A stretch of 64,000 nucleotides of DNA from the NCBI GenBank assembly GCA_937872315.1, contig CALMST010000252.1:1-64000 (forward strand). The letters run 5' to 3'. The stretch's first letter is position 1, and each line of letters begins with the position of its first letter. A program made the position numbers and the translations under genes. Positions 1 through 48,575 of this stretch are shown in pieces. The notes beneath the pieces were generated by a model. It saw only the letters and a list, made by a program, of their open reading frames with translations, made no database searches and had not been told where the DNA came from. The DNA comes from an uncultured Ignavibacteria bacterium (lineage in GTDB: Bacteria > Bacteroidota > Ignavibacteria > Tepidaquicellales > Tepidaquicellaceae).

Positions 1-2477
1 TATTTCACAAAGACCATCTTTCTTGTCTCAGTGAAATTTTCTGCAGTTAGTTTATAAAAATAAATTCCGCTTGAAAGATTGTGTGGATTAAACTGAATAG
101 AGTTGTTTCCGCTTTCAACTTTTCCGCTTATGAGCGTTGCAACATTACTTCCTGAAATATCAAATACCTCAAGAGTAATATTCTGTGCTTTTGGCAAACT
201 AAATCTTATTATTGTTGAAGGATTGAAAGGATTCGGGAAATTCTGCTCGAGTTTATAATCATTCAAAGCTGTTACAGGATCATCAATCCCGATAAGGTCT
301 TCTGAACTTACCCTGGCATTAGTTTCCACTTCCGCCAGCCCGGATGAAGAAATATTATTAATGAGTCCGGAAAAACTTTTAATTATTATCTTTACACTGT
401 CTATAGTTGTAATAGGTGATACATTAACGGTCAGACCTTCAGTTGTAAGAGGTCCGGTTGAAGGGATCTGATTGACGACATTATTGTTTTTGTATAATAT
501 AAGTTCACAGTCAGTAACATGTATATCTGTATTTGTTGCTGCATTGGGCAATATATCGTAAAGTGTAAATCTTCTTACATCAATTGGAATTTCCCATTTC
601 AGCACTATGTATTCATCATTGCTTCCATTTGCTATCCAGTTAACTTTCAGATCAGTATTTCTTGCTTTTCTGTCAACTGCATTCTGCCCTATATAGCTGA
701 TATTGCCTGAAGTTCTATAACTGCTTTCTCTTACATCAGCTGATGTTGAAAGATTTGTAAATGCGCCTTCTGTCACATTTGGCGGAACTGTGATCATAGT
801 ATGTCCTGCGTGACATCCTACACATTTTGTTCCCGAGCCGTCATTTCCGAAATTCATCCCGAATACGTGAGCTATTTCTCCTGTCCTGTTTACAAGTACA
901 TGTTCATTGCTGTCCACTATCTGCTCAAACATTGAAACATTGGCAGGCATATCACCTTCAGCTATCTTTCCGTCCCTGTCAAGACTTATCTCTCTGAACA
1001 ATATCGGGTGATCCTGACCATTCTCGTCTTCTCTCTGAAAATTAAAAAAGAATCTGAATTTAGCATTTTTGGTGATGGGGGGAGCATTTTCAATAGGAGC
1101 ATCTACAGGCGCATTTGAATAAACATTCAGGCAGTCAAATCTGAATAATCCTCCCTGATAAAAAGTATTTGGATTTATTGTTGGAGGTACAAGATTAGTA
1201 TCAAAAGCTTCAAGATATTGCACTACAGGCGGAATTTTTTTAGGTATCAATAATTCAGCGTTTAACTCCAGTGTACCGGGCAGATCAATTATCTGAGTGA
1301 GTTCTCCGCCATTTAAATTACAGGTATAGATCCCGTAATCCTGCTCTGAAACAGAGGTTGCATATGAAAACAAAATTTTACCGTTGGAAAGCGGAAGAGG
1401 ATCAGTTGCATAAGGAGGCTGCATTGTTCCGAATGAAGGAGGATTTGTTATGAACAAGGGAGTAGTACTGTCAACGCCAATGACTTTCACTGCTTCTGAG
1501 AAACCTTTCTCATAAAATCTGATTCCGGGACTGCCGCTGTTGTCATATAAAGGAGTAGGAATAAAAACACTTACAAGATTTCCGTTTGGCATTACTCTTG
1601 GTCTGTATGAATAAAGACCTTTTCTGTTTCTGCTGTCAGTAGCATATTGTTTCAAAGCGTCACCATCGGGATTTATAATGTTTGTCTGCCATATATTTCC
1701 AATATCTGTAGTAAGTGCCTGTTCATCCAGCCTGGTCAATCCTGTTCCTGAAATATTACTGGGTCTGTCAATATTGACCCACCATCTCGAATATAGAATT
1801 CTCCCTGAGATCGGATCAATTGTGGGTTTTTCACCTCCGTTTCTTTCGGTTGTAACCCTGTGGATTATATTTGTAAGAGTATCAGTAATAAAAAGATTGG
1901 TTGTATTTACACCACCTATCTCAGCAAGAGTCGGAAATCTTGTGGAAGCAAAAATAATTTTACCATCCGGCAGATAAACCGGATCAATATCATCATACTT
2001 AATAAATTTATAAGCTGCATTTCCGAATTGAGTCAGGTCAGCGTTTCTGTTTGTAAATGTTATTTTAATCAGTCTAGTACCTTCAGTATTTATCTCATAT
2101 ATTCTCCAGTTACTGTCTCTGTTTTCAATTCCTGCAAACAATATTTTATGCCCGTACCAGTGAACACAAGGCTGCTGAACATCTATAAGCCTTATATTAC
2201 CAAACTGCATTGTGCTGTCAATCAAAGTTTGTATATTACCGGAGGCATCTCTTACCATAAGTTTACCGCCTACAACCTTAAATCTTGAATAAGAACCCAT
2301 TCCCGGAAGCAAACCTGCCTGAGGGTAATTCATATTTCCGTTCAATTCATGATTTCTGGAGACGAAAACAATGGGTGTATTAAATGTCTGAGAATAAATG
2401 GGAGGACTAATTATAATGTACAGAATAATATATATCAGGATAAATCTAATATTCAAAAGTGTAGAAAAGACCTTCAT
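1..2477 (-). CDS. Secreted T9SS cargo protein with beta-propeller-like repeats and one c-type haem motif (3' stop cut by window edge)
   Basis: I read this frame directly from the reverse strand. The ATG at 2477 is followed by a hydrophobic signal peptide, and 825 codons stay open to base 3; bases 1-2 are the first two letters of a TAA or TAG stop. The middle third carries repeated segments of the PD40/TolB propeller style (for example DGKIIFAST, SGRILYSRW, NGKILFSYA). Residues 552-556 read CVGCH, a CxxCH haem c attachment site. The last ~80 residues are a T9SS type A sorting domain (NFPNPFNPSTIIRFSLP, ending KMVFVK). Propeller plus CxxCH recalls the middle domain of hydrazine-synthase-alpha-like proteins, but that comparison is from memory. 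Exported, probably surface-attached or extracellular; substrate and redox partner are unknown. It is transcribed divergently from the next gene across a 142-bp gap. Confidence 0.8.
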   Translation of the reverse strand, partial: MKVFSTLLNIRFILIYIILYIIISPPIYSQTFNTPIVFVSRNHELNGNMNYPQAGLLPGMGSYSRFKVVGGKLMVRDASGNIQTLIDSTMQFGNIRLIDVQQPCVHWYGHKILFAGIENRDSNWRIYEINTEGTRLIKITFTNRNADLTQFGNAAYKFIKYDDIDPVYLPDGKIIFASTRFPTLAEIGGVNTTNLFITDTLTNIIHRVTTERNGGEKPTIDPISGRILYSRWWVNIDRPSNISGTGLTRLDEQALTTDIGNIWQTNIINPDGDALKQYATDSRNRKGLYSYRPRVMPNGNLVSVFIPTPLYDNSGSPGIRFYEKGFSEAVKVIGVDSTTPLFITNPPSFGTMQPPYATDPLPLSNGKILFSYATSVSEQDYGIYTCNLNGGELTQIIDLPGTLELNAELLIPKKIPPVVQYLEAFDTNLVPPTINPNTFYQGGLFRFDCLNVYSNAPVDAPIENAPPITKNAKFRFFFNFQREDENGQDHPILFREISLDRDGKIAEGDMPANVSMFEQIVDSNEHVLVNRTGEIAHVFGMNFGNDGSGTKCVGCHAGHTMITVPPNVTEGAFTNLSTSADVRESSYRTSGNISYIGQNAVDRKARNTDLKVNWIANGSNDEYIVLKWEIPIDVRRFTLYDILPNAATNTDIHVTDCELILYKNNNVVNQIPSTGPLTTEGLTVNVSPITTIDSVKIIIKSFSGLINNISSSGLAEVETNARVSSEDLIGIDDPVTALNDYKLEQNFPNPFNPSTIIRFSLPKAQNITLEVFDISGSNVATLISGKVESGNNSIQFNPHNLSSGIYFYKLTAENFTETRKMVFVK

Positions 2478-2619
2478 AAAAAAATTTTTCTTTAAAATAA
2501 TTATTTAAAAATTCAAATTAACTATAATTCTTACAACCGAATTGCAATTGATAATAAAATATGAATTATATAAGTTTCACTTCAAATTAACTGTCCAAAA
2601 CTAAAACAACTTTATCAAA

Positions 2620-4782
2620 ATGAAAAAATCCCTCCAATTTTTATTACTTATTTTTTTAGTAACTTTTTCAAACAAAACATTATTAGCTGAAGGCTTTAAC
2701 AGTGTTCATACATCAGACGGCAATTTTGTCATAGCCGGAGGTGATCAGGGACTGACTTTCCGCTCAGTTAATGGCGGTAATACATGGGCTTCATATACGG
2801 AACCATCAGTAAATTTTCAAAGTGTTTATACACTGGGAACTAAAGTATGGCTTTCAGGTGACAATGGAAAGATCTATTTGTCTTCAGTGGCTTCTTCCGT
2901 ACTTACACCCGTAATTACAGGAATATCAACTTCTATAAATTCCGTAAAATTTATTGATGCTAATACCGGATTCTTTTGCGGTGACAATGGAGTCTTGTAT
3001 AAATCTGTTGACGGCGGTATTAGCTGGACTTCTTCATCAAACGGAATTTCAAATGTTAAATTAAACACGGTCTCATTTTACGATGCACTATCAGGAGTGG
3101 CTGCCGGAGAAAACGGAAAAGTATTCGTAACTAATAACGGAGGAGCTTCATGGACTCCTGAAAATATTTCATCTGCCCGTAATATACTCAGCGCTGAATA
3201 TTTAACTGACGGGATTATATTAACCGGCGAATGGGGCACACTTATTTACAAGAACAACGGCGGATCATGGAGTTCTGTTGATACTAAAACCAATTCAGAC
3301 ATAAGAGGTATTTCTGGAACAACTCTCAGCAATGTTCATATTTGCGGTGGAGGAGGATTCATCAGAAATAATAGTTCAGGAAATTCAGCTTTTTTGAATT
3401 TTGAAAAAAATCCGATGCTTGCAGATCTTGTTGATATTGTCTATTCGGGAAATACAGGTTTCGCAGTCAGCAGTCTGAATAAAGCCATTATCCGGACAAC
3501 AGATAATGGTACAACCTGGACTTTACCTTCCGGTACTTCAGTTTCTTATGTGTGGGAAGCAAAACCAGGAGCAAGCGGCAGTTTCCTTGGTAATAATCTC
3601 TGTCTGCATCCTACTGACAGAAATGCTGTATTTATTGCATTTGCCGATCAGGTTTACAGAAGCGGTAATAAAGGTGATGCATGGACAAGTATCGGAACAT
3701 CCATTCCAAATGGAACCACTCCGCATTCTTTTTTTGTCAGTCCTGTTGATACAAATATCTGGATGGTTGCCACACAAAGTTCTCCTGATAAAGTATACAG
3801 GACATCAAATTACGGAGCGACCTGGACTGAAGTATTATCAATGAATTTCAGCAATTACGGACAACCTCTGGAAATGGATCAGAATGATCCGCATGTATTT
3901 TATTTTGCCCCTGATAACGGGGGGTTTTATAAATCAACAGATGACGGAGCAACATTCAATGAGATCAGTGGAAATTATCCTTTCAGAAGTCCGTGCGATA
4001 TTTTGGTGAAATGGGATAATTCTGATGTGATATTTTTAGCAGACGGAATTACAGGCAGCGGACAGGCAAAGCTATTCAAATCTGTGAACAAAGGAGTTAA
4101 CTGGACATTGGTTCATACTGCATCTGCCAGTGAGATCCCGTCTATGTGCTCAAACAGATTTGCACCTGAAACTATCTGGTGTACTGAATGGTCAGGAAGC
4201 AATATATACAGATCAACAGATGGCGGAGATACCTGGTCGACTAATCACTCAAATTCTTTTTCAGGATGGGGTTCTGATATTTGTCATGAAGATCCCAATA
4301 TGATGATTACCGGAAGCTGGAGTAACAGAGCAACATTATCTCTGGATAAAGGTCTTACATGGACTGATATAAGTTCAGGTCTCGGAGGACACGGCGGAGG
4401 AATTCTCATTCCCGAAAAAGGTTATATCTTAGCACATCAGGGATCTAATGTATATAAATTAAATATCAGTTACTCGGTGCTTACCGGTATCTCAGAAAAT
4501 ACTGTATCAGCAATAGCTTCAGAATATAAACTTTCACAGAACTATCCGAATCCTTTTAATCCGTCAACTAAGATCTCATATTCAATTCCTCTATCAGGAA
4601 ATGTATCCATTACTATTTTTAATGAACTTGGTAAAGAGATCAGATCGCTTGTAAACGGATATAAGAATGCGGGTAATTATGAAGTTAACTTCAATGCATC
4701 TGATCTGAGCTCGGGAATTTATTTCTACAAAATACAATCCGGCACATACGCTGAGACAAAGACAATGCTGTTAATTAAGTAA
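2620..4782 (+). CDS. Secreted YCF48/BNR-repeat beta-propeller protein with T9SS C-terminal sorting domain
   Basis: A 720-aa protein with an N-terminal signal peptide (hydrophobic residues 4-22, cleavage probably near LLAEG). At least ten repeats of the form 'xGGxTW' (GGNTWAS, GGISWTS, GGASWTP, YGATWTE, GGDTWST, KGLTWTD) are typical of YCF48-like or sialidase-like propellers that fold into one or two beta-propellers. The final ~85 residues are a T9SS type A sorting domain (QNYPNPFNPSTKISYSIP ... SSGIYFYKI ... MLLIK). Such proteins are exported through the outer membrane by T9SS and anchored or released; no catalytic residues could be assigned. It is a single-gene unit with a strong terminator right behind it. 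The leader is A-rich without a clear Shine-Dalgarno site, as is usual in this phylum. Confidence 0.85.
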   Translation: MKKSLQFLLLIFLVTFSNKTLLAEGFNSVHTSDGNFVIAGGDQGLTFRSVNGGNTWASYTEPSVNFQSVYTLGTKVWLSGDNGKIYLSSVASSVLTPVITGISTSINSVKFIDANTGFFCGDNGVLYKSVDGGISWTSSSNGISNVKLNTVSFYDALSGVAAGENGKVFVTNNGGASWTPENISSARNILSAEYLTDGIILTGEWGTLIYKNNGGSWSSVDTKTNSDIRGISGTTLSNVHICGGGGFIRNNSSGNSAFLNFEKNPMLADLVDIVYSGNTGFAVSSLNKAIIRTTDNGTTWTLPSGTSVSYVWEAKPGASGSFLGNNLCLHPTDRNAVFIAFADQVYRSGNKGDAWTSIGTSIPNGTTPHSFFVSPVDTNIWMVATQSSPDKVYRTSNYGATWTEVLSMNFSNYGQPLEMDQNDPHVFYFAPDNGGFYKSTDDGATFNEISGNYPFRSPCDILVKWDNSDVIFLADGITGSGQAKLFKSVNKGVNWTLVHTASASEIPSMCSNRFAPETIWCTEWSGSNIYRSTDGGDTWSTNHSNSFSGWGSDICHEDPNMMITGSWSNRATLSLDKGLTWTDISSGLGGHGGGILIPEKGYILAHQGSNVYKLNISYSVLTGISENTVSAIASEYKLSQNYPNPFNPSTKISYSIPLSGNVSITIFNELGKEIRSLVNGYKNAGNYEVNFNASDLSSGIYFYKIQSGTYAETKTMLLIK

Positions 4783-4794
4783 ATAACAACTTCG

Positions 4795-4830
4795 AAAAAG
4801 TTCAGACTGTTAATTCGGTCTGAACTTTTT
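4795..4830 (+). terminator. Rho-independent terminator after the YCF48-like gene
   Basis: A perfect 13-bp stem (AAAAAGTTCAGAC 4795-4807 with GTCTGAACTTTTT 4818-4830), a 10-nt loop and a T-run, starting 12 bp after the stop codon at 4782. Confidence 0.9.
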
Positions 4831-4888
4831 TATATAAATTTTAAATGTTAATAATGCAGGAAATATTTTTTAACCAATTAAAAAATTT

Positions 4889-5323
4889 ATGAAAACTCAA
4901 ACTTACAACAATCACAAGCGTTATGTTTTTGGTTTCCATGTAATAACATTTTCTTTATGTTTTTTACTTTTTCTGTCATCAGTTCTGAATCTTTACGTTT
5001 CAATAAAAAAGCGTACGGATATGAGGATTGCTGTAATGTTTTTAATTACTTCTCTCATTTTATTGCTGCTGTTTTATTATGCCCGAAGTTTTGCTTTAAA
5101 GGCTCAGGACAGAGCTATAAGAAATGAAGTCTGTTTAAGATATTTTGTGATTGCCGGAAAACTACCGGATGATAAATTATCAATGTCCAAGTTACTTGCT
5201 CTGAGATTTGCACCGGATGAAGAATTTCCTGATTTATACAATAAAACTTTAACTGAAAATTTAAGCAATAAGGATATTAAGAAAGCAATAAAAAACTGGA
5301 AAAGTGATTACCACAGAGTATGA
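4889..5323 (+). CDS. Small two-helix membrane protein, DUF6526-like
   Basis: A 144-aa protein with two transmembrane helices (about residues 15-37 and 47-66) and a soluble C-terminal half. The N-terminal 'YNNHKRYVFGFH', the central 'ARSFALKAQDRAIRNE' and the C-terminal 'ALRFAPDEEFPDL' and 'IKKAIKNWKSDYHRV' match my memory of the DUF6526 family, widespread in Bacteroidota and of unknown function. It stands alone between the strong terminator at 4795-4830 and a long A-rich gap. Confidence 0.75.
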   Translation: MKTQTYNNHKRYVFGFHVITFSLCFLLFLSSVLNLYVSIKKRTDMRIAVMFLITSLILLLLFYYARSFALKAQDRAIRNEVCLRYFVIAGKLPDDKLSMSKLLALRFAPDEEFPDLYNKTLTENLSNKDIKKAIKNWKSDYHRV

Positions 5324-6015
5324 AAAACCACAAAATATGATATAAATATTGTATTTAATTTATATTTTATTGAGAAGTTATTTCTAATTAATGATTAAAT
5401 GTGGTTTGGGATAATAAATATTTGAAGTGAAGGATGAATAAGAATTAATATTGTTTTAGAAAAATTATTCTTTTTTTAAAAAAAATAAAAAATTAGAAAG
5501 AAGTTAATCAAAGAAAAATATGTAAAAAATCCGCGGTAAAATTTATATTGAATGGAAATAAGAATTGGAGGGAGAAAAAATAAAAAACCGGAATAATTGC
5601 TGTCTTATAAAATAAACAATTCAGTAAGATAGAAGCAAAAATTCTGAATGAAAAAAGAAATAAAAATAAAAGAACAAATCAGTATTAAAAGGGCAAAAAA
5701 AAGAACGAAATCAGTAAAAAAAGAACAAATAAAACAAAAAAAATAACTTTACAATTATTAATATATTTTATATTTTGAACTTAATTGTGGCTATCCCAAA
5801 AAGTTCAATTACAAAGAAATAAACATAACATCCCTCAAGGCCGTTCAACCCCAAATTTTGAACGGTGAAAGGAGAAACGAGGGATGTTATTTTATTTAAT
5901 ATCCTGAGTTTTACTCTGTACCATTTCCTCATCATCCTGACATCGTTTCTGCACTCCGCCGGACGCTTTTAAATAAGGATTTACTTTAAACTCTTAAAAG
6001 TTGTTCAGTTAATTT
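5324..6015. other. Long A-rich intergenic region with imperfect repeats
   Basis: No convincing gene in 692 bp. Bases ~5440-5760 are strongly purine-rich and A-rich on the plus strand. They carry short imperfect direct repeats of AAAGAACAAATCAGTA type near 5670, 5701 and 5721. The right part holds two hairpins listed separately. No promoter could be assigned with confidence. Confidence 0.6.
5775..5890. other. Nested hairpins, possible structured RNA or bidirectional terminator
   Basis: Three stems are visible. TTGAACTT (5775-5782) pairs with AAGTTCAA (5801-5808). A 12-bp outer stem ATAACATCCCTC (5825-5836) pairs perfectly with GAGGGATGTTAT (5879-5890). It encloses CCGTTCAA (5841-5848) paired with TTGAACGG (5858-5865). 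The GTTCAA/TTGAAC core occurs in both units, so alternative pairings are possible. T-rich sequence follows on both strands, so it could terminate the small minus-strand gene at 6016-6234 or be a short RNA of its own. Confidence 0.45.
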
Positions 6016-6234
6016 TTATAACTCTTCAACTTTCATTACCAGAATGGAATCATTAATATAAACATTAATGTAGTGAACTCCATTTTCTACCGTTCTGACA
6101 ATTGTTATATCACATTTATTATTTGTGATCTGTGAACTTGAAGTTACGGCTGCTTCACTGGTATTAACACTGCCGAAACTCATTACCGCAACAAAACTTA
6201 GAATTACTAAAATTGATTTGAAAATTTTTTTCAT
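6016..6234 (-). CDS. Small secreted protein of unknown function
   Basis: A 72-aa protein. I chose the ATG at 6234 rather than the upstream in-frame ATG at 6336 because a typical signal peptide starts here (MKKIFKSILVILSFVAVMSF, cleavage likely after SEA) and a purine-rich GAAAGGGG lies 9-16 bases before it. The mature part is ~45 residues with a predicted beta pattern (CDITIVRTVENGVHYINVYI) and one cysteine. No family recognised. It is exported to the periplasm or beyond. Confidence 0.6.
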   Translation of the reverse strand: MKKIFKSILVILSFVAVMSFGSVNTSEAAVTSSSQITNNKCDITIVRTVENGVHYINVYINDSILVMKVEEL

Positions 6235-6445
6235 TTTTTTTTGCCCCTTTCTTACTGATTGTTTATGCAAATTAACAATAACCCTCTGACAAAACAAAGA
6301 AAATAATCGTGGTTTGTCGTGAATTTTTTGATACAATAAAATTTGCTATCCTTTGAAAATTGCTTATATAGATAATTTTCGCTATTTTTGACATGCTTAC
6401 TTCAAAATCATTGTCGCATTTTCGTTAATTAAATTAGATTAAATA

Positions 6446-7933
6446 ATGTATACACATCAGCTTATTGAACTGCTAAAAACCTTTTCAGAAAAAGAATTGA
6501 TGAAATTGTATAAATTCTTAAATTCACCATATTTCAATAACAGCAGGCGAATTGTAACTTTATTTCAGGTCCTGAAGAAATTTTATCCGGATTTTGAAAA
6601 AAGAAATTTTACCCGTGAATATATTTTTAAATTAGTTTATAAGAATTCTGAATACAATGACTCAACATTCAGAAACCTGATGTCCGATCTTCTGCAATTG
6701 ACCCTGAAATTTCTTATGATAGAGGGTATAGAGAAAAAGGAAGTGGAATCTTCATTTTATGTAACCCAGGAGTTATTCAGCAGAGGAAAAATAGATCTCT
6801 TTATATCCAAAATGAATAATATTGACAAAATTCTCAAGGATACCAGTAATCTTGACGGGGAATACTTTCATAATAAATTCAGAGCGGAAACGGATCATTT
6901 TTATGTAAACCTTCTTACAAAAAGAGTTTTAAAAAAACAAATTGTTGTCTCAGAATCTGAAAAGCTGATAAGTGGACTTGTTTCATTACTTAACTATTTT
7001 GTTCTTGAATCAATCAAGCATAACGATAATCTCTTTAATTATTCAAGGACCTATAACATAAAATCTAATATTGTTAAAGTAAATCAGTTTCTGGAAATAA
7101 TAAATTTTGAGAACCTCATTAAATATTTAAGGGAAAATTCCTCCAATGAGATACCAATAGTGGAACTCTATTACAATCTTTTAAAAGCATCAACTAATAT
7201 TGAAGAGGAAAAGTATTATTTCAGATTAAAGGAATCGGTTTTTAAATGTTCTGAACATCTTGGATTAAATGACAATAATTTTCTTCATTCACGATTGATA
7301 GACTATTGTGTAAAAAAAATAAATCTCGGGATACATTCGAGTTTTGATCTAAATGAAGAGATCTATGAACTTTATCAGATTTATGTCAAAAACGAATTTT
7401 ATAAAACATTATCAAATACAAATCTCCCCTTTGATGCATACAGGAATGTTTTAATAAACTGCATCACCACAAAAAAGCTAAAAGAAATGGAAGAATTTAT
7501 TAAAGTATATTCAAAAAAATTATTGCCTGCGCATATTGACAGTATTGTAAATTACAGTTACGCACTTCTGTTTTTCGAAAAAAAGCAGTTCAGCAAAGCA
7601 ATGGAATATCTTAATAAAATTAAATTCGACCAGTTTGTATTTAAACTTGATATGAAGAATTTACAACTCAAGTTAGCTTTCGAACTGGGATATTATGAAT
7701 CAGCGGTTTCTATAATTGACACTTACAAGCATTTCCTGAAAAACAACGCTTTGATCTCTGAGAGCAGAAGAATTATGCACAATAACTTCCTGAACTATGC
7801 AAACAAATTAATACAGTTTAAATTTGGCTCCAGTAAAGTTAATATCCCGTTCTTAAAAGAACAGCTTGAAAAATCGAAAGATGTATTCGATAAAGGCTGG
7901 CTGATAGAAAAAACCAAATTAAAGAAGAAATAG
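6446..7933 (+). CDS. Uncharacterised 495-aa helical protein
   Basis: Cytoplasmic by sequence: no signal peptide or membrane helix. It is almost entirely alpha-helical and rich in Lys, Asn, Leu, Phe and Tyr. It begins with 'LLKTFSEKELMKLYKFLNSPYFNNSRR', a pattern I remember from unnamed proteins of Bacteroidota and Ignavibacteria. The C-terminal half has regularly spaced aromatic and leucine residues that may form TPR-like helical repeats. No catalytic motif is visible. It is single-gene, closed by a strong terminator shared with the convergent gene at 8010-8441. I do not recognise its function. Confidence 0.75.
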   Translation: MYTHQLIELLKTFSEKELMKLYKFLNSPYFNNSRRIVTLFQVLKKFYPDFEKRNFTREYIFKLVYKNSEYNDSTFRNLMSDLLQLTLKFLMIEGIEKKEVESSFYVTQELFSRGKIDLFISKMNNIDKILKDTSNLDGEYFHNKFRAETDHFYVNLLTKRVLKKQIVVSESEKLISGLVSLLNYFVLESIKHNDNLFNYSRTYNIKSNIVKVNQFLEIINFENLIKYLRENSSNEIPIVELYYNLLKASTNIEEEKYYFRLKESVFKCSEHLGLNDNNFLHSRLIDYCVKKINLGIHSSFDLNEEIYELYQIYVKNEFYKTLSNTNLPFDAYRNVLINCITTKKLKEMEEFIKVYSKKLLPAHIDSIVNYSYALLFFEKKQFSKAMEYLNKIKFDQFVFKLDMKNLQLKLAFELGYYESAVSIIDTYKHFLKNNALISESRRIMHNNFLNYANKLIQFKFGSSKVNIPFLKEQLEKSKDVFDKGWLIEKTKLKKK

Positions 7934-7936
7934 AAT

Positions 7937-7976
7937 AAAAAAGTTTTCACTTATTGTTTACAGTGAAAACTTTTTT
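7937..7976. terminator. Bidirectional rho-independent terminator
   Basis: A 15-bp perfect stem (AAAAAAGTTTTCACT 7937-7951 with AGTGAAAACTTTTTT 7962-7976) with a 10-nt loop sits between convergent genes. A- and T-runs flank it on both sides, so it can serve both strands. Confidence 0.88.
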
Positions 7977-8009
7977 ATTTTATTCAACAACCGGCTTTAT
8001 TCCCTGATT

Positions 8010-8441
8010 TTATTTTGACTGATCCATACTTTTGTCATCCGGATCATTCTTGTTATCTCCTTTGCGATGACCTTTTCCTTTTTTATTTTTACGATCTGAT
8101 TTCATCTGATCCCATTTTTCAATTTGTTCTTTATTCAGGATCTCCCGGATCCGGGATTGAAATTTTTCCCGGTTTTGCTTTCTCATTTCTTTTCTGGCAG
8201 TCTTATCCATATCTTTATATTTTTCTTTATTGGATTTTCTTTCATTGGCTTTGTTCAGGAATAGATCATACATCTGCTTATACTGAGAATCTGAAAGAGA
8301 GAGATTTTTTTTCATCATGTCTGCTTTTTTCTGAGCAAATTCTTCCGGTGTCTTTTTAACTTTGTCCTGCTGCTGGCTATATGCACTTCCTGAAATTAGA
8401 ACAGCATTAAGAAGTAATATTACTATTGCGATTATTTTCAT
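8010..8441 (-). CDS. Small basic periplasmic protein, Spy/LTXXQ-like
   Basis: A 143-aa protein with a signal peptide (MKIIAIVILLLNAVLISGSA, cleavage near AYSQ). The mature part is helical, with 'KKNLSLSDSQYKQMYDLFLNKANERK' and 'REILNKEQIEKWDQMK', the spacing of the LTXXQ/Spy-CpxP periplasmic family. The C-terminus is a Lys/Asp-rich low-complexity tail. By analogy it could be a periplasmic stress or metal-binding protein, but the family match is weak. It is convergent with the gene at 6446-7933. Confidence 0.65.
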   Translation of the reverse strand: MKIIAIVILLLNAVLISGSAYSQQQDKVKKTPEEFAQKKADMMKKNLSLSDSQYKQMYDLFLNKANERKSNKEKYKDMDKTARKEMRKQNREKFQSRIREILNKEQIEKWDQMKSDRKNKKGKGHRKGDNKNDPDDKSMDQSK

Positions 8442-8566
8442 ATTCTTTTTTTTATTTTAATTTATGAAATACAAAAGGTAGACAATGCATATCAGCAAAG
8501 GTTTAATTTTTTAAAAGTGATAAGAGGATTAAAGGATGGATGAACATGATTTGGGAATAAAAACAA

Positions 8567-8599
8567 AAAGACCCCGTTAAATATATTAACGGGGTCTTT
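8567..8599 (-). terminator. Terminator of the initiator tRNA gene
   Basis: A 14-bp perfect stem (AAAGACCCCGTTAA 8567-8580 with TTAACGGGGTCTTT 8586-8599) and a 5-nt loop, followed on the minus strand by a T-rich run. It lies 7 bases beyond the 3' end of the tRNA. Confidence 0.88.
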
Positions 8600-8605
8600 C
8601 TTTTG

Positions 8606-8678
<73 letters not shown>

Positions 8679-8835
8679 GTATTTACAAATATAGTAAATA
8701 TAATCTGTTTCTTCAATTACTAAAATTGCGAAAAAATATTAAATTGATTTTACAGATTAATAGGATTAATTTTAAAAACTCTCAATTTTTATTTACTTTT
8801 TTAAATAATTCCTATAAAATTTAAAACATATATTA

Positions 8836-9585
8836 ATGAAGATAATTGTATGCGTATCCATAGTACCTGATAGTACAACTAAAGTAAAAATATCAGAAAA
8901 TGGCCGGTCTATAGATTCATCCGATGTGAGTTATATTTTAAATCCCTATGATGAATTTGCAGTGGAGGAAGCTCTTAAATTAAAAGAAAAAAACGGTGGT
9001 GAAGTTATTGCCGTTGCTTATGGAACTGACAGATCCAAAGAGGCATTAAAAAAATCATTTCAGATGGGAGCTGACAAAGGTGTTTTAATAAAATCAGCTG
9101 ATGATAATTTTGATTCATATACTGTTGCAAAGAATCTTTCGGAATACATCAAAGATCAGAATGCAGATGTTATTTTATTCGGAAAACAGTCAATTGATTT
9201 TGACGGATTGCTGGTTCCTTCTATGGTATCTGAAATCTTGAATTTACCATGTATAAGTGTGGTTGTAAAGCTTGAAATAGATAACGGAAAAGTTAAAGCT
9301 GAAAGAGAAATCGAAGGCGGTAAAGAAATTGTTGAATCTTCCCTACCTGTAATTATAGGCGCTCAGAAAGGCTTAAACGAACCGAGATATCCGAATTTAA
9401 AGAGTATAATGGCTGCAAAATCCAAGCCTATAGAAGAAGTATCAAATTTTTATTCCGGCAATAAAGCTGATATCATTGATATGAAACTTCCACCCGCTAA
9501 ATCAGGCGGCAAAATATTCACAAACGGGAAAGAAGATATTCCTGAACTGGTAAGACTTTTAAGAGAAGAAGCAAAAGTCATTTAA
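8836..9585 (+). CDS. etfB: Electron transfer flavoprotein beta subunit
   Basis: A 249-aa protein, the normal size for EtfB. It begins 'MKIIVCVSIVPDSTTKVKI' and contains 'LNPYDEFAVEEALKLKEK', the AMP-binding 'GKQSIDFDGLLVPSMVSEIL' region and the C-terminal recognition-loop stretch 'LPVIIGAQKGLNEPRYPNL'. EtfB and EtfA form a soluble heterodimer that accepts electrons from acyl-CoA and other flavin dehydrogenases and passes them to the quinone pool or to bifurcating partners. It is followed 33 bp later by etfA in the same operon. No dehydrogenase or EtfQO gene is in this window. The 157-bp leader after the tRNA contains only AT-rich sequence. Confidence 0.95.
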   Translation: MKIIVCVSIVPDSTTKVKISENGRSIDSSDVSYILNPYDEFAVEEALKLKEKNGGEVIAVAYGTDRSKEALKKSFQMGADKGVLIKSADDNFDSYTVAKNLSEYIKDQNADVILFGKQSIDFDGLLVPSMVSEILNLPCISVVVKLEIDNGKVKAEREIEGGKEIVESSLPVIIGAQKGLNEPRYPNLKSIMAAKSKPIEEVSNFYSGNKADIIDMKLPPAKSGGKIFTNGKEDIPELVRLLREEAKVI

Positions 9586-9618
9586 AAATTTATTAATTAA
9601 AAGAAATTACAAAAAAAT

Positions 9619-10632
9619 ATGTCCAATAAAATTTTAGCATTTATAGAATCCAAAGACGGGAAATTTAAAAACTCAGCTTTTGAAGTGATTACTGAAGCAT
9701 TAAAAATTGCAGAAGATTCAGGCTCGGAACTTGAAGTTCTCACCATTGGATCAGGACTTGAATCTGAGATAAATGAACTTTCTGTTTACGGTGCAAAAAA
9801 AATCAAAATTGTAGATCTTAACATTCTCAATAAAAAATACGACGGCGGGGAAATAAAATACTCTCCTTCCGCCTATGCAAAAGTCATAAGTGAAATTGCA
9901 AAAAATGCTGAAGCAAATATTATAATATTATCAGCTACATCACTTGGCAAAGACCTTGTCGGTAGGATAGCCGTAAAAACAGATTCTGCCGTCTTTAATG
10001 ACTGTATTGATATTAAACTATCTGACGGGAAGTTAACTGCCAGCAGACCTGTATATGCGGGAAAAAGTATAATTGATATTAATTCTTCTTCAGAAAAAAT
10101 TGTCATGACATTGAGACCGAATGTATTCAAACCGGAAAAAACAGAGAACAGTTCTATCGAAACTGAAAATACGGATATTGAAAATTTAGGTATTAGCGGA
10201 TCAGATTTTTCAACAGTAGTCACTGATGTTATTGTAAGCAATGAAAAACTTGATGTTGCGGAAGCAGACAAGATCGTTTCAGGAGGAAGAGGATTAAGAG
10301 GACCTGAAAATTTCAATTTAATTGAAGATCTTGCCGGATCAATAGGTGCTGCCACCGGAGCATCAAGAGCTGTAGTTGATGCAGGCTGGAGACCTCACTC
10401 TGAACAAGTAGGACAGACAGGTAAAACAGTTTCTCCGAGTTTATATATTGCTTGCGGTATTAGTGGTGCAATTCAGCACCTGGCAGGTATGTCCTCTTCC
10501 AAATGCATTGTTGCAATAAATAAGGATAAAGATGCTCCTATTTTTCAAATTGCAGATTACGGAATTGTCGGGGACGTTTTTGACATAGTTCCTTCGCTGA
10601 CTGAGGAATTCAAAAAAGTATTATCCAATTAA
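9619..10632 (+). CDS. etfA: Electron transfer flavoprotein alpha subunit
   Basis: A 337-aa protein. The N-terminal half is the EtfA alpha/beta domain. The C-terminal ~125 residues hold the FAD-binding signature 'GASRAVVDAGWRPHSEQVGQ' followed by 'TVSPSLYIACGISGAIQH' and 'IVAINKDKDAPIFQIADYG', where FAD sits at the subunit interface. No extra ferredoxin domain is present, so this is a plain EtfA. Located directly behind etfB with an A-rich leader and no strong Shine-Dalgarno site. Confidence 0.95.
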   Translation: MSNKILAFIESKDGKFKNSAFEVITEALKIAEDSGSELEVLTIGSGLESEINELSVYGAKKIKIVDLNILNKKYDGGEIKYSPSAYAKVISEIAKNAEANIIILSATSLGKDLVGRIAVKTDSAVFNDCIDIKLSDGKLTASRPVYAGKSIIDINSSSEKIVMTLRPNVFKPEKTENSSIETENTDIENLGISGSDFSTVVTDVIVSNEKLDVAEADKIVSGGRGLRGPENFNLIEDLAGSIGAATGASRAVVDAGWRPHSEQVGQTGKTVSPSLYIACGISGAIQHLAGMSSSKCIVAINKDKDAPIFQIADYGIVGDVFDIVPSLTEEFKKVLSN

Positions 10633-37911: not shown

Positions 37912-40900
37912 TCACAAGACATCAGCATAGTTAATATTTTTTTTAGTTGGTTTTGAAACTGATCCATTTTTACCGGATCTGTTTTTTATTTCGTCATCAG
38001 TTTGCTTCAGAACTTCATTTAACTTTTCAGCAAAATCTCTGATATAGGGTTCAGTAACAATTGTTTTATGATCGGTTCCGGGTATAGTATATGATTCAAG
38101 TCCTCCACCCGCAAGTTCTTTCCACTTCTCCCTGGTTTCTTCTTTAAATGCTTCGCATTCGATCAGAGTAATTTTGCCGGGGTATTTTGTTGCGACATAT
38201 TCATCTTGAGCTTTGAAATGTATCAGTTTTATTTCTTCATATCTTCTTTGTCTGGAATCACTCATTAAATACCCAACAGTTTCCTTTATTTTTCTTTGCA
38301 TTTTCATAAATTTATTTACGGAATAATTTTTAGCTACCGTAAATAATTCACCCGATTTCAAATGATGAAATGATCTTTTTATAAAATGCTGCGCATCCCG
38401 TTTCTGTGGTATATGCTGCGGAGGTGGAGCAACAAACGGCGGCCATGTATCAAATATTGCAAGCAATGCTACCTCTTCGCCTGCAGCCATTAACTGCTGT
38501 GCCATTTCATAAACAACTCTTCCTCCAAAACATCTGCCGCAAAGCATATAAGGTCCCTTTGGCTGAAAAGTCCTAATTTCTTTATTATAGAATGCTGACA
38601 TCTCTTTAAGATCAGTGTGCGGTTTTTCAAGCCCATCCAGCCCTATAGATTCCAGTACATAGATCGGCTGTTCGGATGAAACATATTTTAGTAATTCCTG
38701 AAACTGTAAAGCTGTTCCCCCTGCATTTGGCACACAATATAATGGCATTCTGGAACCTCCCGGCTTGATCGGCACAAGTGATTTCCATGGCTGTACCCAA
38801 CCCTTGTCCTTTATGATTGCCGCAAGTTCTTTAATGGTCGGTGAATTGAATAAAGTTGATATCGGAAATTTTCTGCCTGATAATTTTTCGATACTTCCGA
38901 ACAACTGTAAAGCAAGCAAAGAATGACCGCCCAGCTCAAAGAAATTATCATTGATTCCGATGTTCTTTACATTCAATAATTCCTGCCAGATACCAACGAG
39001 CGCACCTTCAATTTCATTTGTCGGAGGCGCGTAATCATTGCTTAATAACTCCGATACATCCGGATCCGGTAATGACTTTCTGTCAATCTTTCCATTAGAA
39101 GTTAAAGGTAATTCATCCATTTCAACCCATAACAGAGGTACCATATATTCAGGTAATTTACTTTTCAGAAAGGTTATTAACTCCTGTTTGTCAAATTTAT
39201 CCGATCCATTTCCAACTACATATCCTATCAGACTCTTTATTCCGTGTTTATCTTCTTTTGCTATCACTACTGTGTTTTTTACCAAGCCGCTTTCCAGAAC
39301 TACACTTTCTATCTCGCCAAGCTCAATCCTGAATCCGCGGATCTTTACCTGCTCATCTATCCTGCCGAGATATTCCATTCTGCCGTCAGGATGCCATTTA
39401 CCAAGATCCCCTGATCTGTAAATTCTTTCACCAGTTGTAGCAATAAAGGGATTTGGTATGAATTTTTGTTTGCTTAACTCTTCAGCATTTAAATAACCGC
39501 GGGCCAGTCCGGCTCCACCTACATTGATCTCGCCCGGAACGCCGACAGGAACTAATTTAAGATTACTATCCAGTATATATGAATTCAAAGTTGGAATAGG
39601 TTTTCCAATAATACTGTTTCCTGATTTTAATTGCTCAGATCCGATTTCCTGAAAGGTCACATGAACAGTTGTCTCGGTAATACCATACATATTGATAAGT
39701 TTACAGTCCGGAAATGACTGCTTCCATGGCAGTAATTTGGACGGGTTAAGCGCTTCTCCGCCGAAGATCACATATCTAACTGCAATATTTTTTTCTTTGG
39801 AAGTAAGGTTTTCCTGAATCACATAAAATGCTGAAGGTGTCTGATTCATTACGGTTACATTTTCAGAAATGATCAGATCCGAATATAATGATGCATCCTT
39901 TGTAAGTTCTTTAGGTATAAGAATTAATTTCCCGCCATAAAATAAAGCACCGTACATTTCCCAAACAGAAAAATCAAAACAGAAAGAATGAAACATTGTC
40001 CAGACATCATTTTCATTAAAATCAAATAAAGGTGAATCATTCATGAATAATCTTACAACATTGTAGTGCTCGATCATTACTCCTTTTGGCTTTCCGGTCG
40101 AGCCGGAAGTATAGATCACATATGCCAGATTATGCGGTTTAATATTTAATCCGGGATTTTTTAAGGAAAGACCTTCCGGATAAGCAATGCTTTCTTCAAG
40201 AATAATTATTTCCTTATTTTCCGGGGAAGATATTCGCGAACTGCTTTCTTTACCGGTGATAACAATTGATGCATTAGTGTCTTCAATTACATAACGGATC
40301 CTGTCTTCAGGATATTCCGGATCCACAGGTACATAAACACCTCCGGCTTTCAAAATTCCCAAAATGCCAACGATCATTTCAAACCCACGTTCTATGCAGA
40401 TCGGAACAAATCCTTCCTCCTTTAATCCTTTGCTGATCAAATAATGCGCTAACCTGTTAGACCTTTCATTCAACTCTTTATAACTCATGGTTTTGTCTTT
40501 ATAGACAAGCGCAGTATTTCCGGGTGTCCTTTCTGCCTGTTCCTCAAACAGATCCACTATGGTTTTGTTTTTCGGATAATCAGTTTCTTTACCTTTAAAA
40601 TCACTGAGTATTTTATTCTCTTCAGATTCACTTAGCATTCTGAGCAATCCTGCCTTCTCATCAGGCTTGTTTACGATCGATCTTAATAATTCTTTGAAAT
40701 GAACTATCATTCTTTTAATAGTATCTTCAGAAAATAAATCAGTACAGTACTGAAAAGATCCCTGTAATCCTTTTTCAGTCTCAAACATATTCAGAGTAAA
40801 ATCAAACATGGAAGTTGTATATTCATATTCCTGAAATGTTAACTCAACATCACCTAATTGTAACTGCTTTGCCTCAGGTGTATTCTGAAATACAAACATT

Positions 40901-41940
40901 ACCTGGAAAAGCGGACTTCTGCTCTGGTCTCTTTGCTTTACTACGGATTCAACAACTTTCTCAAAAGGTACATCCTGATGTTCGTATGCCTCAAGAGTGG
41001 TTGTTTTTATTTTGTTTAATAATTCCGTAAAAGGAGTTTCATTATATACTTCATTTCTTAATGTAAGTGTATTAATGAAAAATCCGATCAGCTCTTCAGT
41101 CTCTTCCTGTAAACGGCCTGCTATCGGAGTTCCGACACTTATATCATTCTGACCGCTGTATCTGTAAAGCATAACATTAAATACCGCAAGCAATGTCATG
41201 AACAATGTAGCGCCATTTTCCTTTGATAATTTTTTTACCGCATCAGATAATTCTTTATCAATGCTGAAGCCATAAACCGCTCCATTTATACTTTGAACTG
41301 CCGGTCTTGTAAAATCAGTTGGTAACTCAAGCGGATCTACATATCGCAGCTGCTTTTTCCAGTAATCTGTTTTTTCTTCCAGTACTTCCGCGTTCAAATA
41401 ATTTTTCTGCCATATAGAAAAATCAGCATACTGAATCTTTAAAGGCTTTAGAATGGGTTCCCTGTTTTCTTCATATGATTTATAAAACTCCAAAAGTTCA
41501 TTTACAATAATCGATATCGACCAGCCATCAGATGCAATATGGTGCATAGTCATAACTAGTATATATTCATCTTCCTTAATTTTTATCAGATTACATCTCA
41601 GCATGTGATCCATAGTCAAATCGAATGGTGCTAAGATCAGTTTGTTTATCTGATCCTGTAATTCTTTCTTGTCACCTGTATATTTTGGATCATCAATGAT
41701 CTGAAGTTTCCAGGTATCTTTATCTTTAATCTTCTGATAACCTTTACCATTAACTTCCTGAATGACAGTCCTTATAACTTCATGTCTGTTTATAATGCTC
41801 TGTAAAGCTTTTTCCAGAGCTTCGGTATTAAGTTTGCCTTTTAGTTTTAAAACTGCGGGTAAATGATATTGAATACTTCCGACAAGTCTGTCAATAAACC
41901 ATAATCTTTCCTGACTGAATGAAAGCGGAATGAGCTCAGG
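37912..41940 (-). other. NRPS module 7: C-A(Thr)-T-TE
   Basis: C ~41930-40640; A ~40580-39050 with pocket D-F-W-N-I-G-M-V-H (FDFSVWEM, VTVMNQTP, YVIFGGEAL, NMYGITETTVHV), threonine; T ~39030-38800; TE ~38790-37912 with GRCFG (Cys codon at 38530-38532). Confidence 0.85.
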
Positions 41941-44900
41941 TCTTGTCTGAACTTCAACAGCAGGCAGTAATGACCTTTTCTTCTGAGTTTCAATATGCTC
42001 TGCAAGATCAGCAATATTCGGATTAAGGAACAGATCCTTAATGGCAAGTTCGGCTCCTATATCATTCCGGACTGAAGATATAACCCTCATCGCCAGTAAT
42101 GAATGTCCGCCCAGCTCAAAGAAGTTATCATGAATGCCAACCTTATCTATGTGAAGTAAATTTTTCCATATCCCGGCAAGCGCGGTCTCCATCTCATTCC
42201 GGGGAGCTGCATATTCTTTGCTCATCTGTTCACTTCCGTCTATATCCGGTAATGCGCGTCTGTCAACTTTTCCGTTCTTTGTCAATGGCAGCTTTTCCAT
42301 CTTTATCCACATCGCCGGTACCATGTAATCCGGTAATCTCTTGCTTAAATATTTTACTATCTCATCTTTTTCATATCCGCCTTCCGGAACCACATATCCG
42401 ACAAGTCTCTTGCTTCCTTCAGCACTCTGTTTTACAAGAACTGCTGCCTGCCTGACAAGCTCACATTCCTGAAGCGCATTCTCTATTTCTCCAAGCTCTA
42501 TTCTGTATCCGCGGATCTTTACCTGTTCGTCCGCTCTGCCGAGATATTCAATGTTTCCGTCAGCTTTCCATCTACCGAGATCTCCCGTTCTGTATAGTCT
42601 TGCGCCTTCTTTTTTACTGAACGGATCCTTTACAAATTTCTCTTTTGTAAGTTCTGGATTGTTCAGATATCCGTTTGATACTCCGTCTCCGCCTAAGTAT
42701 ACTTCACCCGTTATTCCTAACGGTGAAGGCTGCAGATTCTTATTCAAAACATAAGCTGTCCTGTTACTCAACGGCCGTCCAATCGGAATCAGCATTTTCT
42801 GTTTTGTCAGATCGGTTTCTTTTATGCTATATGTCAATGAGAATGTAGTATTCTCAGTCGGACCGTATCCGTTTATAATTTCTATCTCAGGATAAGTCTT
42901 TCTCATCTTTTCAATATGATATTCAGATAATTTCTCTCCTCCTGCAAGTATTGTCTTAAGATTTTTAAAGACTGTAATGTCATTATCAACAAGCTGATTG
43001 AACCAGCTGGAAGTAAACCACATCTTTGTCACTCCCCTGCTGTTAATTTCTTCTTTCAGAAGTTCGCTGTCGAGAAGTCTGCTCTCTGTGCAAAGAACAA
43101 GTTGCCCGCCGTTTAGCAGCATGCCCCAGTATTCAAATGTCGTTGCATCAAATGAAGTCGAACCTGTGGAAAGAAGTACATCGTCTTTTGTCAGTGTCAC
43201 ATAATCAACTCCTTTTACAAGGCTCACAACATTCTTCTGTGTGACCATCACGCCTTTCGGCCAGCCCGTCGAACCCGATGTGTAGATTATATATGCAAGA
43301 TCTTCCGGCTTGACCGATAAAGACAGTTTTTCCTTTGACTCTGCGCTTATCTTATCCCACTCTGTATCTATTTCAATTTTTGTGTACTCTTCAAGAGCAG
43401 GTAATTTTCCGGCACACTCACGGCTGCTGATAATTATTTTACTTCCCGTATCTTTCAGCATGAAACGAATCCGCTCTTCCGGATACTCCGGATCGATCGG
43501 TACATAGGCGCATCCTGCTTTTAAAACACCGAGTATTCCAACCATCAATGTCGCGCTTCTCTCTATGCATAGAGGAACCGGATAACCCTGCTCTGCTCCT
43601 TTGCTTCTGAGATAACGTGAAAACTGATCCGATCTTTCATCAAGATCTTTATATGTAAGCTTTTCATTCTCAAATAATACCGCGGGCGATTCCGGATTCA
43701 AGGATACCTGTTCTTCAAACAATTCAACAATTGATCTATCCGAAGGATATTCTGATGCCGTTTCATTAAACTCATTAACAACTTGATGCTCTTCCTCTTC
43801 TGACAGCATCTGAAGTGATCCCGTCTTCTGCTGAGGATCTCTGACTACTGACTCAAGTAGATTCTTAAAATGAATGATCATCTTTTTGATCGTTTCCTCT
43901 TTGAACAGATCTGTGCAGTATTCGACAATTCCGTGTAAGCCATCTTCAGTTTCAGTCAGACTATAAACAAGATCAAATTTGGATACTTTTTGTTCAGGAT
44001 CTTCGCCTTCCAGAATAAGTTCGCCGAGACGAAGTTCCGGAACTTTTGGTGTATTCTGAAGCGCAAAAGTTACCTGAAATACAGGACTTCTGCTCATGTC
44101 TCTTTGCTTTACAACTGAATCAACTATCTTTTCAAATGGTACATCCTGATGTTCAAAAGCTCCAAGTGAAGAAGATTTTACTTTTTGTAAAAGCTCTTCG
44201 AATGTCTCCTCTCCTGTAACTTCACTTCGCAATGCAAGAGTATTTATAAAGAATCCTATTAATGCTTCTGTCTCTTCCTGCTGTCTCCCTGCTACTGGAC
44301 TTCCGATGCTGAAATTTTCCTGACCGCTGTATCTGTAAAGCAATACATTGAAAGCCGAAAGCAAAGTCATGAAAAAGGTAACACCATTTTTCTTCGACAA
44401 TGAGTTTAATGAAACGGACAAATCCTTATCAATGCTGAATGAAGCGATTGCTCCTTTAGTACTTTGTATGGAAGGTCTCTCAAAATCCAATGGCAATTGC
44501 AGAGGTTCTGAATCAGATAATTTATTTTTCCAGTAAGCGAGTTTTTTCTCAAGCACTTCTCCCTGAAGATAATTTCGCTGCCACATGGAAAAATCAGCAT
44601 ACTGAACCGGTAAAGGTGAAAGACCGGCTTCGCGATTCTCTTCATGCGCTTTATAAAATTCTACAAGTTCTTTTACAATTATAGAAATTGACCAGCCGTC
44701 AGAAGCAATATGGTGAAGTGTAATTACAAGAATATGTTCATTCTCATTAATTCTTATAAGCGTAGCTCTCATCATATGATCTTCAGAGAGATCAAACGGA
44801 GAATTTATTATGTCATTAATATATTTATGTAAACCTTCAGCATTATCTTTATATACTGAACCGTCTATCTGTTCAAGTTTCCAGCTGTCTCTATCCTTAA

Positions 44901-45406: not shown

Positions 45407-48400
45407 TTACAGATCAAATGCTTCTGATTCGTCATCTTTTTCTTTATTCGATTTAATTAAATCAATATACTTTCCGAGATCAGCAATGCTTGTAAATTCA
45501 AATAATGATTTGATCGGAATATTTACCGAGAACTGTTTTCTTATAGCAGATACAGCCCTTGTAGCCAGTAAAGAATGACCGCCCAGTTCAAAGAAATTAT
45601 CATGAATACCTATCTTACCTGATCCGAGAAGATCCTGCCATATTAAAGCCAGTTTCTCTTCGGTTTCATTTCTCGGCTCTTCGTAATTTCCGCTTATTCC
45701 TGCAGTAATATCCGGATCAGGTAATGCTCTTTTATCGACTTTACCGTTTGGAGTTAATGGAATTTCTTCCACTTCAACCCACAAAGAAGGAACCATATAC
45801 TCGGGAAGTTTGGCTTTAATATATGAAATTATTTCCTCTTTATCAAAATTATCTTCCGGCACCACATAAGCCGCTAATCTCTTGTTTCCGGTATTATCTT
45901 CTTTTGCCAGAGTTACCGCTTTTCTTACTGATTTATGCTGTTGTATGATACTTTCGATTTCACCGAGCTCGACCCTGTAACCGCGAATCTTTATCTGATC
46001 ATCTGCTCTTCCGGTATATTCTATATTTCCGTCAGAAAGCCATCTTGCCGTGTCTCCTGTCCTGTATAATCTTGCATCCGGATCTTTACTGAACGGATCC
46101 TTGATGAAACTCCTGTTTGTAAGTTCAGGCAGGTTCAAATATCCTCTTGCGATCTGAATGCCACCGATATATAATTCACCTTTTACTCCAACAGGAACCG
46201 GTTTCTGATCTTCATTTAAAATATAAAGCTGTGTATTGAAGATCGGTTTTCCAATTGGCGGCAGAACCGGAAGATCTCTGCTGTTAACAAGTGTATAACT
46301 GCTTACCACATGCGCTTCTGTAGGACCGTATTGGTTTACTATTGATATACCTTTATCTAAAATTGCCTTTATATCTTCAGTAATTTTTAACTGCTCTCCT
46401 GCTGTGATGATCTGCTCAAGTGGTAAATTATCTCCGGATCTTTCCCTGAGTATTTCAGATAAATTTTTCAGTACAATGTATGGAACGAATAAATGTGTAA
46501 TTCCATATTTAGCTATATCGTTTGTAACTTCTTCCATATCAATTCTTCGGTCAGCACTAATAAGACATAATGTACTGCCATAACAAAGTGTGGAGAATAT
46601 TTCCTGAAAGCTCACATCAAAATTCAGACTGGTAAACTGAAGGACTTTCCTTTTCTTATTTTTAAATTGTCTGTCCTGCCATGAAAGCAAATTAACCAGT
46701 CCTCTTCCCGGCATCCTCACACCTTTCGGATTACCTGTTGACCCTGATGTGTATAGGACATAAGTGAGATTATCAGGTTTTACTCTTTCATCCGGGTTTG
46801 AATCCTTCTGTGAATTCAGCACGGAGTTATTCTCATCAATTTCTATGACTTTAACATTACTTCCAAAATTTATCCTGTCATTAATAAGTTTGCTGCTTAA
46901 AATTATCTTTGCGCCTGTATCATCCAGCATGAAATTTATTCTTTCCTGCGGATACTCCGGATCGATCGGCACATAAGCTCCGCCAGCTTTTAATGTTCCT
47001 ATAATACCTGCTATCATATTTACCGAACGCTCCATACATACAGGAACAAGCGTTTCCTCTTTCACTCCCTCTGACCTTAATAAATGAGCAATACGATTGG
47101 ACAGCTCATTTAACTCTTTATATGACACTATCTTTTCTTCAAATTCAACTGCCGTTGTTTCCGGATTCTTTGCAGCCTGCTCTTCAAACAGATCAACAAG
47201 ACTCTTGTCTTTTGGATAATCTGCTTCAGTATTATTAAATCCGGCTATGACCTGTCTCTCTTCTTCATGAGAAAGTAACTTAATGTCATTTATTATTTCA
47301 GCTTCATTACTGATGATCTGCATAAGCACATTTTCAAAATGCTCTCTTATCTCAGATGCAAATTCATCTTTTAATATCTCTTTATTATAATTGAAATTAA
47401 CATTGATCTCCTGAACACCACCAACCAAAACTGTCATCGGATAATTTGTCTGATCTTTCATTTTTACATCATCGATCTTCAATGTCCATTCCTGCGACAT
47501 TATAATATCACTTACCGGATAGTTCTCAAACACTAGTATGCTGTCAAAAAGGTCACCGCTCACGCCAGTCCAGCTCTGTATTTCCTGTAACGGCGTGTAC
47601 TGATATTGTCTTGAAGAAACCTGGTCTTTCTGAATATCCTGTAACCAGCTTTCTGTCCTCTTTCCTTTTTCCAGTATAGAATGTAAAGGAAGAGTATTGA
47701 TGTACAATCCGACACGCTGTTCTATTCCCTGAAAATCATCAGGTCGTCCGGAAACTATAACGCCAAATGTAATATCTTTATTTCCTGTATAAGCATGAAG
47801 AAGATAAGACCATACTCCCTGAATTAATGTATTCAATGTAATGCGATGACTCTGCGCATAATTTTCAGCTTTTGAAGTTGTTTCTTTATCAAGCTTCAGT
47901 AATATATTTCCATATTCACCAACACCTTTCGTTCTGTCTGAAGTGCTGCCAATGAACGGAAGCAATGTGCTTTCTTCAACACCTCTCATGTATTCTCGCC
48001 AGTATTTTTCCTGCTGAACTTTATCTGACCTTTCCAGATATCTGATATAATCCTCAAACCTGTCTTCAACCCGCTCTTCAGGTATTTTGCCTGATAACAA
48101 TATTTCATAATTATTCAAAAACTCACCCATCAATATTGACAAAGACCAACCGTCAAACAAAATATGATGAGATGTCCATAACATTTTATATCTGTTCTCT
48201 TCAAGTTTTATCAGAGTGATCCTCATCAATGGTACTTCTTTAAAATCAAATCCCTTTGAGTGATCTGTTTCCTCAAGTTCTTTAAGAGCTGCAGCCTGTT
48301 CATCTGAATTCATGTTACTGTAATCCAAAACCGTTAATGGCAGCTCGGCATTTTTATAAACACACTGTACCGGAACTGAGAATTCCTCATAATAAAATCC

Positions 48401-48575
48401 GCTTCGCAATATGCTGTGATCCTTTAATAAATAATTCCAGCTCTTCTTCAGAATATCCATGTCAGGTTTATTCATATAACAGCTCAGCTGCTCGGTATAA
48501 GCACCTGATTCGGAATCGTATAAAGCATGAAAAAGCATTCCCTGCTGCAATCCGCTGAGTCTGTAAATACTTTCA
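45407..48575 (-). other. NRPS module 5: C(D-L)-A(proline-like)-T with docking tail
   Basis: C ~48570-47290 (HHILFDGWS). The A pocket read by eye is D-V-Q-F-I-A-Q-V-V (FDVSFQEIF, THLFVPY, IITAGEQL, VNQYGPTEAHVV), close to proline codes such as DVQFIAHVV but with Gln instead of His at one site. T ~45690-45470 (FFELGGHS), then a short Lys/Glu/Asp-rich tail. Confidence 0.75.

Follow-up and report, generated by a model that had tools for sequence, protein, structure and literature searches.

In hydrazine synthase (HZS), His587 of the CxxCH motif is described as binding zinc and Tyr591 as binding the iron (PMC12607021, PMC12758564), while Cys303 is reported to share the zinc and to be lacking even in part of the anammox HZS (PMC12758564). 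HZS alpha (HzsA; 5c2v/5c2w, NF052339) consists of a propeller followed by a middle domain that carries CxxCH at the haem alpha-I site. Over 600 structural matches to HZS alpha and four homologue clades are set out in PMC12758564, which argues against hydrazine production by them; in the homologues studied in that paper Cys303 is not conserved and a gap is found at Ser590/Tyr591. A broad family of HZS-like enzymes acting on other substrates is suggested in PMC10732223. The non-anammox PF18582 proteins treated in PMC12758564 combine a propeller with the PF18582 haem motif, several such proteins identified in the present analysis also having a tail for the type IX secretion system (T9SS), and it is with these and with HzsA that we compare a protein from an uncultured Ignavibacteria bacterium.

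The DNA analysed, referred to here as the window, is a stretch of 64,000 nucleotides from contig CALMST010000252.1. The minus-strand frame at 3-2477 codes for a protein of 825 residues, hereafter the haem protein, the stop codon of which is not visible because window position 1 is also the start of the contig. The gene and its parts are as follows.

3-2477, minus strand: HZS-alpha-like haem propeller protein, 825 aa, assigned by homology; stop codon off the contig
2391-2477, minus strand: probable signal peptide, residues 1-29, a hydrophobic N-terminus judged by eye
1188-2372, minus strand: propeller region, about residues 36-430, with NF052339 and 5c2v_A similarity at residues 100-141
1638-1640, minus strand: codon of Thr280, at the alignment position where ordinary PF18582 proteins have an invariant His and HZS alpha has Cys303
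798-1187, minus strand: HZS-alpha middle (haem) domain, about residues 431-560, from a sub-cut-off PF18582 match and hhalign
867-869, minus strand: codon of His537, candidate distal ligand, within a family-specific 7-residue insertion
810-824, minus strand: CVGCH haem-attachment motif, residues 552-556, from sequence and family conservation
801-803, minus strand: codon of His559, the last residue of CxxCHxGH, conserved throughout the family and adjoining the HZS Tyr591 position
324-755, minus strand: DUF7402 domain, residues 575-718, PF24135 at 19.4 bits, below cut-off
12-239, minus strand: T9SS type A sorting domain, residues 747-822, TIGR04183 at 46.6 bits (cut-off 23) and PF18962 at E 1.9e-11

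An earlier note on this DNA had described a PD40-like propeller protein with a haem motif within 801-840 and a C-terminal T9SS sorting domain. Both the motif and the sorting domain were recovered where they had been placed. The PD40 label is fair for the family, in which a match at E ≤ 0.1 was obtained for 10 of 24 members, but the domain search of the haem protein itself reported no PD40 match. DUF7402, which would be a discoidin-like beta-sandwich, was matched at E ≤ 0.1 in 20 of the 24 members, and no open-access paper mentioning this domain was found. Elsewhere in the window, one uninterrupted frame of 6197 aa or more (45407-64000, minus strand) runs off its end and adjoins a 2484-aa frame at 37912-45366.

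The tie to hydrazine-synthase-alpha-like propellers, for which the earlier note had proposed an HMM search, was supported by several comparisons. Aligned by hhalign with 11 PF18582 proteins, the 24 family members, whose identity to the haem protein goes down to 44%, gave an E value of 7.4e-31 and a probability of 99.85, with CxxCH falling on CxxCH. When a profile of the same 24 members was searched against the PDB, only HZS alpha was found (5c2v_A/5c2w, E 6.2e-8); near the motif this alignment, which lays CVGCHAGHT on CSGCHYGSY, is insignificant by itself (domain 4, -1.9 bits). The haem protein alone matched 5c2v_A at E 0.0019 and the NF052339 model hydrazine_alpha at E 3.4e-7, the latter reaching 5.7e-12 in a relative. 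Matches to PF18582 were weaker: that of the haem protein (model positions 48-97, window 810-983) scored 12.5 bits against a cut-off of 26.6, and 11 of the 24 members were matched at E ≤ 0.1, with a best E value of 5.8e-4. At E ≤ 1 the haem protein was nevertheless the sole PF18582 match in its own genome, and at E ≤ 0.001 this model had matches in 13 of 296 genomes. Taken together, these results place the family as HZS-alpha-like, yet outside the reach of the curated model.

Homologues of the haem protein at E ≤ 1e-5 were present in 38 of 99 genomes, its own included, 35 of them with strong matches. Conservation was assessed on 37 aligned rows, 2 or 3 of which end upstream of the motif; the distant PF18582 proteins L058, L059 and L061 were kept apart from this alignment, as were the copies of G041 and G043, which are fragments only, and the fragment G033:C33. 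Counted over the rows that reach each site, Cys552 is conserved in all 35, and Cys555, His556 and His559 are each conserved in all 34. These 34 copies, which span three families, have one CxxCH each and share the consensus CxGCHxGH, with a second His three residues past the haem His. His537 is likewise His in 33 copies out of 34, the remaining one having Gln, while the position of Met541 is Met in 23/34 and the family has no invariant Met. Two further cysteines, Cys449 (32/35) and Cys657 (34/34), are also conserved. Composition shuffling of the haem protein yielded a CxxCH in 110 of 200,000 sequences, and a chance origin of the motif was rejected on its conservation across the family. Loss of CxxCH in homologues had been named in the earlier note as the observation that would count against a haem site; as no family copy that covers the motif has lost it, this objection falls away. 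The identification as a c-type protein with one haem, belonging to the HZS-alpha-like superfamily and probably exported by Sec, is well supported.

It is around the haem site that the family departs from its relatives. The iron ligand Tyr591 of HzsA is replaced by Thr or Ser in 34/34 family copies and the zinc ligand Cys303 by Thr, Ser or Gly in 24/24 members; the haem alpha-II domain is absent, with DUF7402 and a T9SS tail found instead. In a joint alignment in which the Cys303 site was placed through the alignment to 5c2v, all 11 sampled ordinary PF18582 proteins have a propeller His there, as opposed to the Thr, Ser or Gly of the family. Conversely, the His three residues past the haem His is present in 24/24 family members and in 2/11 PF18582 proteins, and the seven-residue insertion with His537 occurs in the family and not in the ordinary PF18582 proteins; both residues are extra relative to HzsA, His559 sitting at HZS Ser590, next to Tyr591. 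This pattern suggests that the haem domain has taken over a ligand role from the propeller, and the loss of the propeller His together with the gain of His559 and of the His537 insertion beside the haem looks new. AlphaFold models, for which three sequences (the window's protein, L051 and L052) were used as input, had a mean pLDDT of 32 for the whole protein and of 38 for residues 431-722, and with both predictions of too low confidence we can only infer the ligation. T9SS tails are found on other PF18582 proteins of the phylum too (L058, L114, L117 and L122 over cut-off, L059 below it), and the C-terminal domains of PF18582 proteins of this kind differ from those of the haem protein.

Divergently transcribed from the haem gene is a second propeller gene.

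2620-4782, plus strand: conserved partner, a Vps10/Ycf48-like BNR propeller protein with a T9SS tail, 720 aa

The partner matches PF15902 and PF14870 and has no CxxCH motif. Its sequence similarity to the BNR propellers of the Ycf48/Vps10 type (PDB 2xbg, 5oj5) is weak, and it differs from them in its T9SS tail and in its linkage to the haem protein; a weak similarity to the glycosylhydrolase model NF045728 stayed below cut-off. Strong relatives of the partner are present in 36 of the 99 genomes and the haem protein in 35, all of which have both, so that the partner stands alone only in G042 (co-occurrence 35/36). This tally leaves aside the haem-protein rows of G048, G088, G096 and G064:C30, with E values of roughly 1e-7 to 1e-10, and the ten partner rows that matched least well (E 3e-56 or worse), with which G006, G060, G087 and G098 are lost as partner genomes; presence of the partner was judged among at most 13 scored candidates per genome, which makes absence less firm than presence. 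Nine genomes of family f1 are without the haem protein, and eight of these show no partner, with a weak match only in G006.

The two genes also lie close together, at most 1.1 kb apart in 21/21 copies from 20 genomes of the same family, and the partner adjoins the haem gene at G064, from another family, and at G031:C79 as well. In the sister family f2 the arrangement is different, the partner adjoining the haem gene in one of 16 copies and lying apart from it in 15. A single clade, made up of the G012 copy and the second copies of G010 and G031, spans two families and has the partner alongside each copy, which suggests that the haem gene and its partner have been transferred as a pair. The conserved linkage of a second T9SS propeller protein to the haem gene looks new. 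Since the group to which the partner belongs has up to eight matches per genome, the partner may have further roles too; at two loci (L130 in G000:C347 and L133 in G014:C109) partner paralogues are clustered, some of them about 1100 aa long and without the usual tail motif.

Other neighbours are less closely tied to the haem gene. A choice-of-anchor V protein adjoins the partner in 20 genomes, and because it is present in 64 of the 99 genomes, also where the haem gene is absent, it is merely a possible third component. Those examined mostly have a shortened CxCH (GCxCH) with a conserved ELTH..PK, and T9SS tails were seen on four of these proteins (L137:11315-12133, L139:3590-4411, L158:79-909 and L156:14206-15087). 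Six f2 loci of the haem gene (L073-L075, L077, L078 and L082) show, by eye, an Rrf2-like regulator and small lipoprotein-like frames, along with an IscA-type protein; five of these loci also have an Fe/Mn superoxide dismutase. Because neither the dismutase nor the Fe-S neighbours recur beside the haem gene in f1, they were rejected as functional partners.

The genome of the organism encodes the machinery that export of such a protein would call on. SprA_N of the T9SS translocon was matched over cut-off, at least 149 other matches to the T9SS tail of the haem protein were found, and three PF01578 (CytC_asm) matches over cut-off point to cytochrome c assembly; with all three in place, haem attachment followed by type IX export would be possible. 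A scan of viral contigs with the haem protein gave 28 loci, which were dropped as all matches start from query residue 681 and cover only the T9SS tail region. Our literature search covered open-access papers, with subscription papers and preprints lying outside it. Within that scope no paper was found that joins the CXXCH motif to the type IX secretion system, or type IX secretion to cytochromes, heme and extracellular electron transfer taken together, and the search returned no description of the haem protein family.

The suggestion of the earlier note that such a haem might be relevant to extracellular electron transfer is weakly supported. As a member of such a chain, the protein would use its haem as a surface electron relay to minerals or partner cells, and the genome does contain a T9SS-tailed haem protein: a 715-aa protein with nine CxxCH motifs and MtrC/MtrF-like and c7 matches, encoded on another contig, C187 (L156:11851-13995, minus strand), and a candidate, by its sequence, for a type IX-exported electron-transfer cytochrome. 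It belongs to a cluster of frames with 6, 12, 3, 3, 17 and 18 CxxCH motifs and a cytochrome b561-like protein, the neighbouring cytochromes lying at 58-9728 of the same locus; the choice-of-anchor V protein inside this cluster has CxxCH. The haem protein would resemble the multihaem MtrC/MtrF-like cytochromes in exposing haem at the surface, but it has a single haem motif and its domain search gave no c7 or MtrC match. The several close haems or cytochrome neighbours of an electron conduit are likewise missing: among the window's frames of at least 80 aa no other contains CxxCH, and the conserved neighbour is a propeller without the motif. If the organism moves electrons outward, the C187 cluster is the better candidate; the haem protein is unlikely to be the cell's outward route, and we consider the relay reading very improbable.

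Closer to the known chemistry of the superfamily, the haem could be catalytic in the manner of HZS haem alpha-I, with His556 binding a metal, His559 replacing Tyr591 as iron ligand and an open distal side acting on a small nitrogen compound. The alignment with 5c2v puts the invariant His559 at Ser590, next to Tyr591, and in HZS His587 binds zinc and Tyr591 the iron (PMC12607021), but nothing corresponds to Cys303, the other zinc ligand, and no CCP/MauG protein (HZS gamma-like, PF03150) was matched in the genome, which is 96% complete. We hold this reading to be unlikely, and hydrazine synthase itself was rejected, the Tyr591 and Cys303 ligands, the second haem domain and the gamma partner all being missing. 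Four potential ligands in eight residues, together with the conserved Cys449 and Cys657, could instead form a site for zinc or another metal with no haem at all. Such a site is made highly improbable by the homology of the motif to a proven haem site and by the cytochrome c assembly proteins of the genome, and the extra His is absent from most of the ordinary PF18582 relatives, which keep CxxCH. A structural or binding protein, in which the discoidin-like domain and the two propellers would bind surface glycans and the haem would merely stabilise the fold, agrees with the DUF7402 and propeller domains and with the sub-cut-off NF045728 similarity of the partner; it sits poorly with His559 and His537, which are strictly and near-strictly conserved beyond what attachment uses, and we do not think it likely.

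As a whole, the best explanation is in our judgement a surface single-haem HZS-alpha-like protein with a relocated ligand and a partner propeller, which we regard as rather probable; that the protein is a distant, haem-carrying and surface-displayed relative of HZS alpha is very probable. The conservation of the motif, the homology, the loss of the propeller His and gain of two others, the T9SS tail and the linkage to the partner are read directly from the sequences, and it is from there that we infer haem attachment, export, ligation and chemistry. A beta-propeller would adjoin a small domain whose haem takes the position of haem alpha-I in HZS. Sec export would be followed by haem attachment in the periplasm, and the type IX system would next carry the protein out to the cell surface, where it would be retained in the company of its discoidin-like domain and of the second T9SS propeller protein (window 2620-4782). 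His556 would be the proximal ligand, and a distal or auxiliary ligand, possibly propeller-derived in ordinary PF18582 proteins, would have moved to His537 and/or His559. The haem may then serve as a surface redox or small-molecule-binding site, with a nitrogen oxide or peroxide as our guess, and the partner propeller could be a substrate-docking or assembly subunit. More tentatively still, and with a rather low expectation that all its parts hold together, we propose an offshoot of the HZS-alpha fold whose haem site was rebuilt (CxxCHxGH/His537) and which works as an obligate two-propeller unit, an undescribed extracellular haem enzyme that in some genomes would include a third T9SS protein bearing the CxCH motif.

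As far as the open literature cited here goes, HZS-alpha-like proteins from outside the anammox bacteria are sequences without a tested function. The present family is a defined, conserved and probably surface-exported version of them. Its ligand set has changed and its partner gene has been named, which makes the role of these cousins of hydrazine synthase a question that can be tested on a unit of two genes. The family further suggests that covalent-haem proteins are among the cargo of the type IX system.
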